DNA of 64,000 nt from Microbacterium sp. (GTDB lineage: Bacteria; Actinomycetota; Actinomycetes; Actinomycetales; Microbacteriaceae): positions 992,001 to 1,056,000 of the forward strand of contig JAFKIL010000001.1 in assembly GCA_017306415.1 (NCBI GenBank), given 5' to 3'. Positions 35,849-63,706 of the stretch are shown piece after piece. Position 1 is the stretch's first letter. The number at the start of each line of letters is the position of its first letter. Both the position numbers and the translations under genes were made by a program. A model generated the notes under the pieces. It worked only from the letters and a program-made list of their open reading frames with translations. It was not told where the DNA came from and did not search any database.

Positions 35849-38734
35849 GTGACCCATGATGAGGACGCCGTCGTCCAGGCCCCGCCCCCCGCTGTGACCC
35901 CGCAGGAGGCGACGGCCATCGCCCGCGAGCTGTTCGCCGTGGACGGAGAGGCACACTCCCTCGGGAGCAACCAGGACCTCAACTTCGTGCTGCGCGGCGC
36001 AGGCGAGCCGACCCTGCTGAAGATCGCGAATCCGGACACCACGGCGGCAGAGCTGGAGGCGCAGTCGCGCGCCGCGCGGATCGTGGGCGAAACCACGAGC
36101 ATCCGTGTCCCGCTCGCGAGAGAGCTGACCGACGGCGGAACCGTTCGGCCTGTCGAGGTCGAGGGACAGACGATGCATGCGCGACTGCTCGACTTCCTCG
36201 AGGGTCGCACGCTCTCCGGCAGCGACTACCTCCCGCCACGATCGGTGCGTGCCCTGGGTCGGCTCGCCGCGGACTTCGACCTCGCGCTGGCGGACTTCGC
36301 CGATCCCGGCGCGGAGCGCGCGAGTCAGTGGGACCTCCGTCGCACGCCGTCGGTCATGGCCGAACTCCTGCCTTCGATCGACGACCCGGCTCTGCGAGCT
36401 CGCCTCGAGACCGCACTCTCGGCGGCATGGCGCGCCGTCGCGAGCGTTGCGGACGACCTGCCGCTGCAGGTGATCCACGGCGACCTGACGGACGACAACG
36501 TGGTGGCGGGCGACGCCCGGAGCGGCCTCCCCGACGGCGTGATCGACCTGGGTGACCTGAACCGCTCCTGGCGGGTCGGCGAGCTCGCGATCACGCTGTC
36601 CTCGCTGCTCCACCACGACGGCGTCGACCTCGTCGCCGCGCTCGAGGCGGCGCGGGCGTACCACGACCGAGCCCCCCTGACCGCGGCCGAGGCGGACGCG
36701 GTGTGGCCGCTCGTCGTCGGCCGCGCGGTCGTCCTGGTAGCCAGCGCCCACCACGTGCTGCGGACCGACCCGGGCAACGACTACGCGGCGGAGAACCTCG
36801 TCCACGAACAGGCGATCCTGGAGGCGGCGACGGCGTTGCCTCTCGCCGTCGCGGGCCGGCTCGTGCGGACCGCGCTCGGCTTCCCCGCCCCCGTCCTCAC
36901 CCTCCCCTCCGGGTACGGGAGCCTCGTGAGAGACGCCGCGGCGGCGACGACGCTCGACCTCTCCGCGATGAGTCCGCTGCTCGACGAGGGCCGATGGCTC
37001 ACGCCGGACATCGAAGCGACCCTGACCGCCGCGGCGCCGCGCGACGGCGGGATCGTCCTCACACGATTCGGCGAAGCGCGGCTGACACGCTCCCGCCCGC
37101 ACTCGCAGGATGCCCCGGCGAACGTCGCCACCGGCGTCGACGTGACGGTCGATGCCCCGACCGACCTCGTCGCCCCGTGGGACGGCGATCTCGCGGCGAC
37201 CGCCGACGGCTGGGAACTGCGGGGGCCCGGGCTCCGGCTCCGCGTCACGGGTTCCGACCCGGTGCGCGGCGACGGGCCGATCCGCCGGGGCGCTACGATC
37301 GCGAGCCTGCGCGGCACCGCGCGGATCGCGGTGTCCGCCGCCGACGTCGATCCGCCCGCGTTCGTCACGGCAGCCCTGCGCGACGCCTGGCGGGCCGCGA
37401 TCGCCGACCCGACGCCCCTGCTCAGCCGAGACGAGCGCCCCTCCCCCGACGAGGACGCTGCCGAACTGCTGGCCCGCCGGGCCGCGGCTCTCGCGGGGGT
37501 GCAGGAGCACTACTTCGACGCACCGCCGGTGATCGCACGTGGCTGGCGCGAGCACCTCGTCGACACCGAGGGTCGCGTCTACCTCGACACGCTCAACAAC
37601 GTGACCTCGATCGGCCACGCGCATCCGCGCCTCGTCGAGGCGATCGCGGCGCAGTGGCGCCTCATCAACACCAACTCGCGATTCCACTACCCGGCCATCG
37701 TCGAATTCGCCGAGCGCCTGGCCGCCCTCCTCCCGGACGGACTCGACCGCGTCTTCCTGGTCAACAGCGGCTCGGAGGCCGTCGACCTCGCGCTGCGCCT
37801 CGCCCAGGCCCACACCGGCCGACCGGACATCGTGGCCCTCAGGGAGGCGTACCACGGGTGGACCTCCCTCGCCGACGCCGTGTCGACGTCGGTGGCCGAC
37901 AACCCGCACGCCCTCGCCACGCGGCCCCCCTGGGTGCACACCGTGGCCGCGCCGAACACCTACCGCGGAATGCACAGCGACGAGCCCTCCGCCTATGCGC
38001 GAGACGCCGTGGCCGAGGTCGACCGCCTCGCCGCGGAAGGGACGCCGCCGGGCGCGTTCATCGCCGAGAGCATCGCAGGGAACTCCGGAGGGATCGTCTT
38101 CCCCGACGGCTACCTCTCGGCCGTCTACACCGCGGTTCGATCGCACGGCGGTTTGGCGGTGGCGGACGAGGTCCAGGTCGGATACGGACGCCTCGGTCAA
38201 TGGTTCTGGGGCTTCGAGCAGCAGGGCGTCGTCCCCGACATCGTCGCGGTGGCGAAGGCGATGGGCAACGGCCACCCGCTCGGCGCGGTGATCACATCAC
38301 CGGAGATCGCCGAGAGCTACCGCACCTCGGGCTACTTCTTCTCGTCCGCCGGGGGCAGTCAGGTGTCATCCGTGGCCGGCATGACCGTCCTCGACGTCAT
38401 CCGCGACGAGCGCCTGCAGGAGAACGCACGCGACGTGGGCGCATACCTCAAGGGCCGCATCGAACAGCTCGCGCAGCGGCATCCGATCATCGGGACCGTG
38501 CACGGCTTCGGACTCTACCTGGGTCCCGAACTCGTGCGCGACCCCGCCACGCGGGAGCCGGCCGGTGAGGAGGCGGCGGCGATCAGCGAGCGGCTGCGGA
38601 TCCTGGGGGTCATCGCGCAGCCGACCGGCGATCACGGGAACGTGCTCAAGATCAAGCCGCCGCTGTGCATCACCCGGGAGAGCGCCGACGCCCTGGTCGA
38701 CGCTCTCGACCGGGTGCTCACCACGGGGTGGTGA
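35849..38734 (+). CDS. Three-part fusion: APH-type kinase, M23-like domain, class III aminotransferase/phospho-lyase
   Basis: 961 residues. Residues ~20-340 are an aminoglycoside-phosphotransferase/hydroxylysine-kinase fold with the catalytic loop VIHGDLTDDN near 210 and VIDLGDLNRS. Residues ~390-510 resemble an M23/LytM beta domain but lack the zinc-binding histidines, so this part is probably non-catalytic. Residues ~550-961 are a class III aminotransferase with VNSGSEAVDLALRLA, ADEVQVGYGR and PLP lysine ~803 in AVAKAMGNGHPLGAV, a motif shared with ethanolamine-phosphate and phosphohydroxylysine phospho-lyases. A kinase-plus-phospho-lyase pair would degrade an amino alcohol or hydroxy-amino acid. 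GTG start; CAGAAT lies six bases upstream. Confidence 0.85.
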   Translation: MTHDEDAVVQAPPPAVTPQEATAIARELFAVDGEAHSLGSNQDLNFVLRGAGEPTLLKIANPDTTAAELEAQSRAARIVGETTSIRVPLARELTDGGTVRPVEVEGQTMHARLLDFLEGRTLSGSDYLPPRSVRALGRLAADFDLALADFADPGAERASQWDLRRTPSVMAELLPSIDDPALRARLETALSAAWRAVASVADDLPLQVIHGDLTDDNVVAGDARSGLPDGVIDLGDLNRSWRVGELAITLSSLLHHDGVDLVAALEAARAYHDRAPLTAAEADAVWPLVVGRAVVLVASAHHVLRTDPGNDYAAENLVHEQAILEAATALPLAVAGRLVRTALGFPAPVLTLPSGYGSLVRDAAAATTLDLSAMSPLLDEGRWLTPDIEATLTAAAPRDGGIVLTRFGEARLTRSRPHSQDAPANVATGVDVTVDAPTDLVAPWDGDLAATADGWELRGPGLRLRVTGSDPVRGDGPIRRGATIASLRGTARIAVSAADVDPPAFVTAALRDAWRAAIADPTPLLSRDERPSPDEDAAELLARRAAALAGVQEHYFDAPPVIARGWREHLVDTEGRVYLDTLNNVTSIGHAHPRLVEAIAAQWRLINTNSRFHYPAIVEFAERLAALLPDGLDRVFLVNSGSEAVDLALRLAQAHTGRPDIVALREAYHGWTSLADAVSTSVADNPHALATRPPWVHTVAAPNTYRGMHSDEPSAYARDAVAEVDRLAAEGTPPGAFIAESIAGNSGGIVFPDGYLSAVYTAVRSHGGLAVADEVQVGYGRLGQWFWGFEQQGVVPDIVAVAKAMGNGHPLGAVITSPEIAESYRTSGYFFSSAGGSQVSSVAGMTVLDVIRDERLQENARDVGAYLKGRIEQLAQRHPIIGTVHGFGLYLGPELVRDPATREPAGEEAAAISERLRILGVIAQPTGDHGNVLKIKPPLCITRESADALVDALDRVLTTGW

Positions 38735-60898: not shown

Positions 60899-61375
60899 TC
60901 AGTCGACCTTGGCGACCGTGCCCGAGGTGAGGCGCACGAGCTCGTCGTACGACAACGGGAAGACCGTGTGCGGCGTGCCCCCGGCCGCCCACAGCTCGGG
61001 GTAGACGGCGAGTGCCTCGTCGACGATCGTGGTCAGCGGCGCGGGATGGCCGGTCGGCGCCACGCCGCCGATCGCCTGCCCCGTGGCATCCCGGACCTGC
61101 TCCGGCGTCGCGCGGCGGATGGACGTGCGACCCAGTCGTTCGGCCAGCGCCGCCGTGTCGACGCGGTGAGCCCCGCTCGTCATGACGAGCAGCGGCTCGT
61201 CGTCGCTCCAGAACACGAGGCTGTTCGCGATCGCCCCCACCTCGACGCCGAGCGCCGCCGCCGCGAGCGCGGCCGTGGATGCCGCATCCGGGAGCACGAC
61301 GATCTCGCCGCCGATCCCCGCCGCACGCAGAGCGTCGTGGACGAGGCGGCTGCGGGCGGGGAGGTTCTCGCTCAT
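60899..61375 (-). CDS. YbaK/EbsC-type aminoacyl-tRNA deacylase
   Basis: 158 residues, YbaK/ProX-like editing fold. Motifs: ANSLVFWSDDEPLLVMTSGAHRVD with the family's central strand, and GQAIGGVAPTGHPAPLTTIVDEAL, which forms the substrate loop. Such enzymes hydrolyse mischarged tRNAs (Cys-tRNAPro and relatives). TAGGCT lies exactly six bases before the ATG. Confidence 0.9.
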   Translation of the reverse strand: MSENLPARSRLVHDALRAAGIGGEIVVLPDAASTAALAAAALGVEVGAIANSLVFWSDDEPLLVMTSGAHRVDTAALAERLGRTSIRRATPEQVRDATGQAIGGVAPTGHPAPLTTIVDEALAVYPELWAAGGTPHTVFPLSYDELVRLTSGTVAKVD

Positions 61376-61411: not shown

Positions 61412-61487
61412 GTCGGAAAAGCAGGCTGAACGGTCGCAACAGCTGCCCGCGACACCGCTCTCAGCCGATCGAGCCTGCTTCCCCGAC
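61412..61487. repeat. 76-bp palindromic element, copy 1 (3' of nuclease gene)
   Basis: Arms 61412-61427 (GTCGGAAAAGCAGGCT) and 61472-61487 pair over 16 bases with two mismatches. The inner 44 bases differ from copy 2. It lies eight bases beyond the stop codon of the DUF559 nuclease gene. Confidence 0.7.
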
Positions 61488-61495
61488 GATCCGCG

Positions 61496-62314
61496 TCAGC
61501 GAGTCGACCGGAGACCGAAGACCGCAGCCCGCACGAGTTCGGGCCGCCACATGATGTCCTCCGCGATGGGACGGTATGTGGCGTAGCCGAGCGACGCCGC
61601 GGCTTGATCCCGCCGACGATCACGGCGCTGCTCATCCCAACTCGAATGGTGCTCCCTGCTGTCGCATTCGATGATGAGCCATCCCTCGACCAGGAAGTCG
61701 ACTCGTCCCACTCCCTCGATCGGCACCTGCACCTCGAACGAGCAGCCCAGCGAACGAAGTATCAATCGCATCAACGACTCCGGACCCGACTCGGCGCGCG
61801 AGTCCAGAAGACCTCGGAGCCGGCGGTACCGGCGTGGAAGTGCAGCGAAGAGTTCGTCGAGGTCATCGCGATGAATGGCGTTGAGGTGCAGCGCTGAATC
61901 GATCGTCGCGACCGAGGCACGCGGATCCTGGCACAGCACCGCGTGGACCAGCGCATCGAGCACCTCGACCGAGAGCGCCTCGGGATGCGGACGACGCCGC
62001 AGCACATCGCGATGTACACGATGTCGGACGTGGATGTCAGGAAGACGGGCGGCGGTCCGTTCGATGTGAACATGGAGAGTCTGCACATCTCGTACGAAGA
62101 CCCCCAGGCGCCGGAGTTCTGACACACACGTGAGGCGGCCACGCAGTCGACCCGCCTCGATGCACGACTGGTCGGTTCCCGCCGGACAGAACGCACCGGC
62201 GCGAAGACGGACGAGGCGCCCCTCGCCGACCGCCGCGCGGACCTGTCGCTCGGTCAGTCCCCGCGTGCGGAGGTGTCGGGTTCTTATCAATGAGGGAATC
62301 GGCGCGGAGTTCAC
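61496..62314 (-). CDS. AbiEi-like winged-helix plus DUF559 (VSR-like) endonuclease protein
   Basis: 272 residues. The N-terminus (~1-90, RTRHLRTRGLTERQVRAAVGEGRLVRLRAGAF) is the AbiEi-type antitoxin wHTH. The C-terminus (~175-270) is a DUF559/VSR PD-(D/E)XK nuclease: Glu175/179, Asp206 in GRVDFLVEG, Glu216-x-Asp218 in IIECDSREHH, then a DRRRD helix. The GTG at 62314 is chosen since CACGAT lies exactly six bases upstream and inside a 19-bp perfect palindrome; the longer frame runs into a palindromic element. No AbiEii toxin gene is adjacent. G+C is lower than in neighbours. Function unknown; nuclease activity is inferred. Confidence 0.8.
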   Translation of the reverse strand: MNSAPIPSLIRTRHLRTRGLTERQVRAAVGEGRLVRLRAGAFCPAGTDQSCIEAGRLRGRLTCVSELRRLGVFVRDVQTLHVHIERTAARLPDIHVRHRVHRDVLRRRPHPEALSVEVLDALVHAVLCQDPRASVATIDSALHLNAIHRDDLDELFAALPRRYRRLRGLLDSRAESGPESLMRLILRSLGCSFEVQVPIEGVGRVDFLVEGWLIIECDSREHHSSWDEQRRDRRRDQAAASLGYATYRPIAEDIMWRPELVRAAVFGLRSTR

Positions 62315-62328
62315 GATTGAATCGTGAA
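62310..62328. promoter_or_regulatory. Perfect 19-bp palindrome over the nuclease start codon
   Basis: TTCACGATT-G-AATCGTGAA covers the start codon (62312-62314) and the CACGAT hexamer (62321-62326, minus strand). AbiEi antitoxins repress their own promoters through inverted repeats, so autoregulation by the encoded wHTH is likely. Confidence 0.6.
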
Positions 62329-62638
62329 CGCGCGTGCCGCGACCCCCGCCCGCCCTCTGAACATCCGTGGATCGCCGCGCCCATGGCGTCCCTGCGGAGG
62401 AGACGGTCGTTCGCGGCACCGGTCGGAAGAGCAGGCTGAAACGCATCCGAACGCCGTTCGAGCGCCCATCACTTCCGCCTCAGCCTGCTTTTCCGACAAG
62501 AGCGACCCCGCACGTACCGCGAACAGGCCGGCGGCCGGGTGGCCGCAGCCGGGCGGCGGGGGCACAATGGACGGTGGACGCAGCAAAGCCGCGGCGTCCA
62601 CCGAGCACAGCCCACAAGGCCAGCCGAAAGAGGTCGCG
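62315..62638. other. Gap between nuclease gene and amino-acid dehydrogenase gene
   Basis: 324 bp without a gene. It holds the palindrome at the nuclease start, the second 76-bp element (62422-62497), and a promoter-like CACAAT (62563-62568) for the dehydrogenase gene. Confidence 0.6.
62422..62497. repeat. 76-bp palindromic element, copy 2 (5' of nuclease gene)
   Basis: Arms 62422-62439 (GTCGGAAGAGCAGGCTGA) and 62480-62497 pair over 18 bases with one mismatch. Inside is a second perfect palindrome, CGAACG-C-CGTTCG (62448-62460). It has exactly the length of copy 1 and the same outer arms. Confidence 0.75.
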
Positions 62639-63706
62639 ATGACGCACACCCTGCCCCTGCCCGAATTCACCCACGAACGCGTGGAGGTGATCACGGGCTC
62701 GCGCAGCGGCCTGTTCCTCACCGTCGCGCTGCACTCCTCGGTGCTCGGCCCCGCTCTCGGCGGCGCTCGCCTGTGGACCTACGCGCACTGGAGCGACGCC
62801 CTGGGAGACGCACTGCGTCTGTCGGCGGCGATGACGCTCAAGAACGCCACGGCGGGCCTGGACGCCGGCGGTGGCAAGGCGGTCATCCGCCTGGCCCCGG
62901 ACACGGTGCTGGATGCCGAGTGGCGCCGCGCGGCATTCCTCGATCTCGGTGACGCGGTCGAGTCCCTCGGGGGCCTCTACCGCACCGCCGAGGACGTCGG
63001 CTCCACCACGGAGGACATGCTCGTCGTGAGCGAGCGCACCGCCCACGTCGTCGGGCTCCCCGACGCGGTCGGCGGCTCCGGCGAGCCGGCGGGTCCGACG
63101 AGTCTCGGCGTGTACGAGTCGCTCCGCGCGACGCTCGAGCGCGTCACCGGCTCCCCCGATGTCGCCGGGCGCCGCATCACGATCTCCGGCATGGGCCAGG
63201 TCGGCAGCCGCCTCGCGGTGCGCCTCGCGGCCGAGGGCGCGGTGCTCACCGTGACGGACGTGAACCCCGCCAAGCGCGACGTCGCCGTCCAGCTCGAGGC
63301 GTCGTGGGTCGACCCCGGCACAGAGCATCTCGTCGAGGCGGATGTCTTCGTGCCCGCCGGGATCGGCGGCATCCTCGACGACGAGGTCATCGCCGCCCTC
63401 GACGCGAAGGCGGTGTGCGGACCGGCCAACAACCCGCTCGCCGAGCGGGCAGGGGCGGAGCGGCTCGCGGAGCGCGGCATCCTGTACGCCCCCGACTTCG
63501 TCGTCAACGCCGGCGGCGTGATCTACCTCGACCTCGAGGCGAAGCGCATCGGCACCCGGGCCGAGATCATGGACCGCGTCGCACACATCGGCGACACGCT
63601 CCGCCGGATCTACGATGAGGCCGAGCGGCGCTCCGTCACACCGCTCGAGGCGGCCGAGAGCCTCGCCGCCGAGCGGCTGCGCAGCGGCTCCGGCATCCTC
63701 GCGTGA
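62639..63706 (+). CDS. Leu/Val/Phe dehydrogenase-like NAD-dependent enzyme
   Basis: 355 residues of the Glu/Leu/Phe/Val dehydrogenase family. Substrate-binding domain with GPALGGARLWTY and MTLKNATAGLDAGGGKAVI, where the catalytic Lys lies in the GGGKAV loop; NAD domain with ITISGMGQVGSRLAVRLA and the late CGPANNPLAE, GILYAPDFVVNAGGVIYL. It deaminates branched-chain amino acids to 2-oxo acids reversibly; size and motifs fit leucine/valine dehydrogenase. The ATG has AAAGAGG seven bases upstream. The following gene looks like an acyl-CoA synthetase. Confidence 0.9.
   Translation: MTHTLPLPEFTHERVEVITGSRSGLFLTVALHSSVLGPALGGARLWTYAHWSDALGDALRLSAAMTLKNATAGLDAGGGKAVIRLAPDTVLDAEWRRAAFLDLGDAVESLGGLYRTAEDVGSTTEDMLVVSERTAHVVGLPDAVGGSGEPAGPTSLGVYESLRATLERVTGSPDVAGRRITISGMGQVGSRLAVRLAAEGAVLTVTDVNPAKRDVAVQLEASWVDPGTEHLVEADVFVPAGIGGILDDEVIAALDAKAVCGPANNPLAERAGAERLAERGILYAPDFVVNAGGVIYLDLEAKRIGTRAEIMDRVAHIGDTLRRIYDEAERRSVTPLEAAESLAAERLRSGSGILA

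Follow-up and report, generated by a model that had tools for sequence, protein, structure and literature searches.

The window, a stretch of 64,000 nucleotides from the genome of a Microbacterium species, contains a nuclease gene (61496..62314, minus strand) that lies between two palindromic elements, one downstream of the gene at 61412..61487 and the other upstream at 62422..62497, neither of which is assigned to a strand. The original prediction, made from the sequence of the window, held that both elements are exactly 76 bp long with common outer arms and differing middles, and that they bracket the gene with its stop codon eight bases and its start about 110 bases away; both descriptions are borne out. 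The stop codon, on the minus strand, ends at 61496 and leaves a gap of 8 bases to the downstream element. The longest reading frame begins at an ATG at 62446, within the upstream element, and a GTG at 62314, 107 bp from that element, is the likelier start because residues 1-46 of the longer product are predicted to be disordered and matches to homologs reach only so far. The palindromes are imperfect, with inverted arms of approximately 19-22 bp (about 22 bp around a variable middle of about 32 nt in the downstream element), and the middles of the two elements are unlike. On the left, the arms read GTCGGAAAAGCAGGCTGAA and GTCGGAAGAGCAGGCTGAA. Pairing extends over 18 of 18 bp for the outermost arms of the two elements and over 17 of 18 for those of the upstream element. 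On one side, the locus is adjoined by a gene for a protein with an aminoacyl-tRNA editing domain (YbaK-like by Pfam; 60899..61375, minus strand), and on the other by a gene (62642..63706, plus strand) that we take, on reading its sequence, to encode an amino-acid dehydrogenase of the Glu/Leu type; these two genes served as the anchors of a conserved locus for empty-site comparison. When up to three mismatches are allowed, a 16-mer of the arm has five matches in the window against 0.92 expected, a number reached by 1 of 100 shuffles, and four of the five are the arms of the two elements themselves. Both elements are recovered with E-values of 3.1e-12 or better in a whole-genome search with a covariance model that was built partly from them. 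A weak match to the covariance model also occurs on both strands at 37046-37097 (19 and 16.5 bits), too weak to call.

The protein encoded between the elements appears to be composed of an AbiEi-like winged helix-turn-helix, a middle domain and a C-terminal nuclease domain resembling the Vsr/EDxHD type. Its identification as an AbiEi-wHTH/DUF559 nuclease, also part of the original prediction, holds: DUF559 scores above its Pfam cut-off, accompanied by weak AbiEi matches and by MTES_1575 at an E-value of 7.5e-8, under the cut-off of that family. The predicted structural model is confident from residue 47 onward (mean pLDDT 84.4), and its Foldseek matches are the AbiEi antitoxin 6y8q (E 6e-4), the catalytic domain of I-Bth0305I (3.2e-3) and Vsr (1.1e-2), weak scores of which one is below 1e-3. 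Taken with a modest match to 3hrl (1.1e-4) in a PDB profile search, these results point, with modest scores, to a catalytic fold of the Vsr/EDxHD type, for which we use the family name given in PMC3943268. Residues E223, D250, H267 and D276 are invariant across 31 aligned homologs and would suit an EDxHD-type active site. PADLOC returned only weak AbiEi and homing-endonuclease matches, and NCBIfam had no match for five proteins. No AbiEii toxin gene adjoins the nuclease among its identified neighbours, the tRNA-editing-domain gene and the dehydrogenase-like gene. The Y1 (RAYT-type) transposase family, PF01797, is absent from this genome and present in 5 of 14 control genomes, and none of 30 pattern matches in viral contigs encodes a relative of the nuclease. 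Protein searches place its closest relatives in Microbacterium species. Homologs are encoded by 230 of 366 genomes of the genus at E <= 1e-40, and in an order-wide sample, which includes members of this genus, the nuclease profile is matched by 62 of 149 genomes at E <= 1e-20.

A search for further 76-bp copies, suggested along with the original prediction, was productive both here and across the genus. In this genome there are 11 close copies, the window pair among them, each with a length of exactly 76 bp, and four more divergent copies at E <= 0.05 (76, 76, 86 and 98 bp); the covariance model was built from the 11 close copies, and their recovery is by construction. With the same model, 24 of 366 genus genomes have element matches at E <= 1e-3, and since 13 candidates were scored per genome under strict filters, this number of genomes and the number of matches are lower bounds. 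Among the copies, GTCG and GCAGGC, together with their complements, vary little or not at all, and the middle is variable. We considered a structured middle and rejected it, as folding of nucleotides 20-57 in the 11 copies is no stronger than that of shuffled sequences (z from -1.0 to +1.7). Allowing up to two mismatches, the 16-nt arm has 26 matches in the 3.76-Mb genome, 23 of which lie within palindromes of 76 or 86 bp; at three mismatches, the genome count of the 16-mer arm alone is not above that of a reversed control (31+37 versus 61+52). The genomic signal resides in arm pairs, not in single arms. By a crude, composition-based gene prediction, seven of ten dispersed copies fall outside predicted genes, three overlap the edge region of a predicted reading frame, and five lie within 40 bp of the predicted stop codon of ordinary, unrelated genes. 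A scan of 400 kb of contig 4 at >=17/20 arm pairs found 12, compared with 2 in one shuffled copy, and two of the 12 flank a nuclease gene, leaving ten without an assigned nuclease. On the same contig (G000:C4), palindromes of 63-64 bp at about 16989 (L168) and 346527 (L185) have GCGTTCACGTCG.TGGG in common and no known adjoining nuclease gene, and are perhaps another palindrome family.

We compared 98 nuclease loci with 220 predicted genes taken as controls from 400 kb of this genome. The loci are the window and its four paralogs, the 29 matches ranking next, 40 picked from lower ranks, and 24 from twelve element-bearing genomes, for which 30 were fetched and five repeats and one short locus were dropped. 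Scored at >=15 of 18 arm pairs and a length of 58-104 bp, with a widened upstream window, palindromes are found upstream of 65 nuclease genes versus 23 control genes, downstream of 45 versus 18, and on both sides of 33 versus 1 (Fisher p 4e-18, a value that overstates independence because the loci share descent). Since all control genes come from this one genome, outer windows at the same 98 loci were scanned as well, and these contain palindromes upstream in 8 cases, downstream in 8 and on both sides in 1. Raising the threshold to >=16/18 gives 46 upstream, 30 downstream and 16 on both sides of 98, against 6, 4 and 0 of 220; an earlier set of 74 loci, scanned at 58-90 bp, gave 42, 30 and 19, against 9, 7 and 0 of 150 genes. 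A looser criterion, >=14/18 at 58-104 bp, finds palindromes on at least one side of 94 of the 98 loci, with controls high too, and on both sides of 53 versus 25 of 220, or 34 versus 2 when matched arms are required on both sides. This criterion blurs the contrast and misses the upstream element of the window, as the longest reading frame starts inside it. The two flanks of a nuclease gene also tend to resemble each other, with a common 18-mer (at least 17 matches) at 31 of 74 loci compared with 4 of 300 pairs drawn from different loci and 1 of 150 control genes.

The pattern extends to other samples. In named GTDB genomes, whose species overlap with the main set, 75 loci remained of 80 after five were dropped for short flanks; 53 have a palindrome on either side and 31 a common 18-mer. 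Outside the genus, 24 loci remained of 30 fetched once six of the same genus were removed, and 9 of them have palindromes on both sides, 12 upstream and 13 downstream, with 3 and 0 in the outer windows. Some nuclease genes have no detectable palindromes, for example that of genome G105 at the window's own locus. No fixed orientation of the two flanking copies is seen across 33 loci, which divide into 16 ties, 10 inverted and 7 direct pairs. A nuclease homolog from another family of the order (L392; G024:C1, 1876175-1876939) has 72-bp palindromes on both sides that are almost the same along their whole length (alignment score 68/72), a clean and possibly recent case. The association between palindromes and this nuclease family is well supported. 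Homologs that mostly lack flanking elements, an outcome named in advance as counting against the original prediction, are not what we observe, as tested, with 65 of 98 loci flanked upstream and 45 downstream at >=15/18. The analogy drawn there to REP-associated transposase genes is strongly supported as a description of the arrangement, given palindromes on both sides of 33 of 98 loci and 1 of 220 control genes; the interpretation as a whole is partly supported.

Each nuclease gene appears to have arms of its own. This genome has four other nuclease genes, flanked by palindromes whose arms, compared by eye, are unlike those of the window, and at all four the flanks have common 18-mers at 17-18 matches. 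For 34 dispersed elements from 17 genomes, ranked against nuclease flanks from 19 genomes, flanks from the element's own genome come first in 17 cases, and the summed own-genome arm similarity is reached in 0 of 20000 label permutations; in G137, G160 and G046, own flanks rank 12th-14th. A check of twelve element-bearing genomes, covering 30 of their 60 nuclease places, found a good arm match (>=16/18) in five (G018, G349, G374, G310 and G298) and none (<=13) in the other seven among the nuclease flanks fetched. In those seven, the cognate gene may have been lost or may lie among the unfetched places, or the link may be looser than we propose; remnants are expected of a mobile element. Over 71 loci, the distance between arms correlates with the distance between proteins (Mantel r 0.30), more so for the N-terminal part (0.33) than for the nuclease part (0.23), each with 0 of 2000 permutations as high. 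No nuclease match was found near dispersed copies in nine regions of 9-18.5 kb each in this genome. Copies far from any DUF559 gene in genomes that lack one, which had been listed as evidence against a link, are seen in part: a matching nuclease is missing from what was fetched in 7 of 12 genomes, and all 12 hold nucleases of the family.

Arm sequences vary among genomes yet remain palindromic. In a set of 36 elements from 15 genomes, selected for a length of exactly 76 bp, the arm covariation score is 0.319, as opposed to 0.151 for shuffles and no more than 0.150 when partners are slid, and two-sided changes occur in 15 of 22 arm pairs versus 12.0 after shuffling (10 of 500 shuffles reach 15). 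All 36 elements of this length-selected set have standard pairs at columns 1-76 and 2-75. Covariation of this kind fits a hairpin or two identical half-sites alike. In another genome, three element copies lie within 390 bp (G106:C1:1792491-1792879, L369), two of them with near-identical visible arms and a spacing of 140 bp.

Several comparisons bear on mobility. A dispersed copy at G000:C13:16188-16263 matches the upstream element of the window at 61 of 76 positions, including 25 of 38 in the middle (the median of all pairs is 16), and the flanks of the two are unrelated, with 11/60 and 20/60 identical positions. Of 38 loci examined for the tRNA-editing and dehydrogenase-like genes, 22 have both, two of these being from the same genome. 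Six have gaps of 97-245 bp with neither element nor nuclease, six hold 654-1032 bp of other sequence, two genomes (G054 and G018) have a solo element, and seven, including this one, have a nuclease. Empty sites, whose existence the original prediction had proposed as a test, therefore occur at the window locus alongside solo-element and full states. Next to ackA, this genome has an element that by eye is present at none of 25 other loci holding both neighbours (30 loci were compared, four of which are without one neighbour). In one genome (L326, G021), the intergenic gap beside ackA that in this genome contains the element holds a different palindrome with arms GCACTTTGTCGGGAGAAG.. / ..CTTCTCCCGACAAAGCGC, as if two palindrome families used one site. 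Beside the dehydrogenase-like gene, nuclease homologs recur in several species with differing arms (L145, L146, L152, L154, L159 and L162), so that different pairs of nuclease and palindrome seem to have a hot spot on this side of the locus. A single nuclease was matched as two adjoining pieces, as if frame-shifted, in G298, G374 and G255, and the flanks of the split genes in G298 and G374 match dispersed elements; such genes suit a selfish element, and neutral loss would lead to the same picture. In G349, G287 and G017 the genes had seemed broken, an idea that we rejected since their stop codons all come within 23 codons of the start of the match. Inspection of the copies by eye turned up no target-site duplication. 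Mobility is indicated by the copy pair that is alike over 76 bp and no further, and by the loci that differ between species in presence or absence.

We propose that the gene and its two palindromes belong together as a single unit, one example of a nuclease-palindrome system whose nuclease cuts its own palindromes and thereby drives their spread, a reading that we regard as somewhat probable. An AbiEi-type winged-helix protein with a Vsr/EDxHD-like nuclease domain would recognise its own family of palindromes by their inverted arms of approximately 22 bp, probably by means of the AbiEi-like part, and would bind either as a dimer on the duplex of about 76 bp or on an extruded hairpin. A double half-site of 76 bp is plausible because I-Bth0305I dimerises on nearly 60 bp, as described in the excerpted text of PMC3943268. 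The nuclease would then cut at its palindromes, and repair of the break, or capture of the released fragment, could copy the palindrome to new and mostly intergenic places. The bracketed gene may move or be lost together with its palindromes, leaving solo and dispersed elements behind. Nucleases of the PD-(D/E)XK type hydrolyse DNA and do not join it, and therefore mobilisation would need host repair. Arm binding, cleavage, and cleavage as the driver of spread are steps that we infer from the bracketing, the arm matching and the distribution of the copies. A wider proposition, that actinobacteria harbour a widespread class of mobile repeats in which a hydrolytic AbiEi-Vsr nuclease, with no transposase, maintains and spreads its cognate palindromes, the two co-diversifying as several independent pairs per genome, is more tentative, and we would put it a little short of even.

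Other explanations account for parts of the evidence. AbiEi antitoxins bind inverted repeats in their own promoters, and the palindromes could be nothing more than sites of autoregulation by the AbiEi-like domain, the nuclease moving none of them and the dispersed copies being old duplications or further sites under regulation. In its favour, the N-terminal part matches AbiEi in fold, arms co-vary most strongly with the N-terminal part of the protein, and the upstream element lies near the start, where an operator might be expected, upstream palindromes being commoner than downstream ones (65 versus 45 of 98 loci). Operators alone would not lead us to expect the downstream palindromes, at 45 of 98 loci and 18 of 220 control genes at >=15/18, or copies within 40 bp of the predicted stop codons of unrelated genes, as is the case for 5 of 10, and the signs of mobility given by 76-bp-limited duplication and presence/absence between species also speak against this explanation, which we consider unlikely. 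It is also conceivable, if fairly unlikely, that solo palindromes are targets for homing, in which cleavage and break repair insert the nuclease gene and duplicate the palindrome, the palindromes themselves being spread by another enzyme. Homing would explain why G054 and G018 have a solo element where the window has the full unit, and why nuclease genes recur beside the dehydrogenase-like gene with differing arms; it would also accord with the predicted resemblance of the nuclease domain to I-Bth0305I, whose family is described as dimerising on a target of nearly 60 bp in the portion of PMC3943268 cited above. However, a resident gene would then stay between two target sites that are still intact, there would be no explanation for the dispersal of the 76-bp element, and solo elements could equally be remnants after recombination.

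Two further readings separate the palindromes from the nuclease. As with MITEs, they might be moved by an unrelated DDE transposase, with nuclease genes bracketed merely because such intergenic regions attract them. Terminal inverted repeats, a mostly intergenic dispersal and a variable middle would all be in keeping with this; nevertheless, bracketing is specific to nuclease genes (both sides at 33 of 98 loci, versus 1 of 220 genes and 1 of 98 outer windows), the arms are cognate to the adjoining nuclease, and the pattern is seen again in other genera, with different arms, all of which make this origin very improbable. Alternatively, the palindromes could be transcribed as terminators or mRNA stabilisers and selected in place, their link to the nuclease being indirect. 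We consider this hardly probable at all: five of ten dispersed copies do have a predicted stop codon no more than 40 bp away and the arms do covary, but the T-run is unconserved and the loop long, no Rfam family reaches its gathering score (only miRNA families match, far below their cut-offs), and arms differ according to the nuclease that they flank.

AbiEi-Vsr-type nucleases are common in the order (62 of 149 sampled genomes), and in the literature examined no role involving palindromes was found for them; at the level of titles and abstracts, no link of DUF559 or MTES_1575 nucleases with flanking palindromes came up. Should each nuclease prove to act on a palindrome family of its own, a large group of enzymes would acquire a defined substrate that lends itself to direct tests. 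The catalytic fold predicted here resembles that of I-Bth0305I, and the cited text of PMC3943268 describes the EDxHD/Vsr-like homing endonucleases as intron- or phage-encoded, whereas the genes considered here are free-standing chromosomal genes with an AbiEi-like domain and flanking palindromes. VsrA of Caulobacter, like our protein a DUF559-type PD-(D/E)XK nuclease of a bacterial chromosome, is linked in the excerpts of PMC12907096 to a solitary cytosine methyltransferase or cytosine methylation and to mismatch repair, and the string 'palindrom' does not occur in that text. The MTES_1575 domain is named a Vsr-type REase in the HEPN survey (PMC3710099, in the part cited), and the extracted text of PMC11037411, which treats nucleases with a winged-helix fusion as restriction enzymes that depend on methyladenine, is without Vsr, DUF559 and AbiEi. 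AbiEi of the type IV AbiE system has the same predicted N-terminal winged-helix fold, which here is fused to a nuclease and has no adjoining AbiEii among the identified neighbours. In Neisseria, the GIY-YIG Ssn nucleases are tied to dispersed short repeats, and their nuclease fold is unrelated to the Vsr type.

The closest known system is that of RAYT genes flanked by inverted REPs, in which protein and repeat trees match according to the excerpted text of PMC2817692. As in the REPtrons described there, a gene lies between two palindromes that are also dispersed intergenically, and the repeats are gene-specific. The enzyme is different, a winged helix-turn-helix joined to a Vsr-like nuclease and no HUH/Y1 transposase between the palindromes. 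REPs are 20-40 bp long with an unpaired GTAG/CGTC tag (PMC3733652, passages available), and the palindromes studied here are about 58-104 bp, the range scanned; in the 76-bp family the middle is long and variable, the GT..AC ends pair, and the copy number found is about 15. Because the flanking copies have no constant orientation, and are not consistently inverted as REPs are, the single-strand model for RAYTs cannot simply be transferred. CGTC-tagged REPs offer a second comparison, as small intergenic palindromes that lie mostly 3′ of genes; they differ in being short stem-loops with an unpaired tag in other phyla, all as given in the excerpts of PMC3733652, which contain neither 'DUF559' nor 'actinobacteri'. 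The same excerpts report these repeats as lacking a dedicated transposase, and the enzyme behind them is still open in print. Our results suggest that nuclease-palindrome pairs are an undescribed kind of mobile repeat system and, if our proposal is correct, a second and unrelated type of enzyme would stand behind REP-like repeats.
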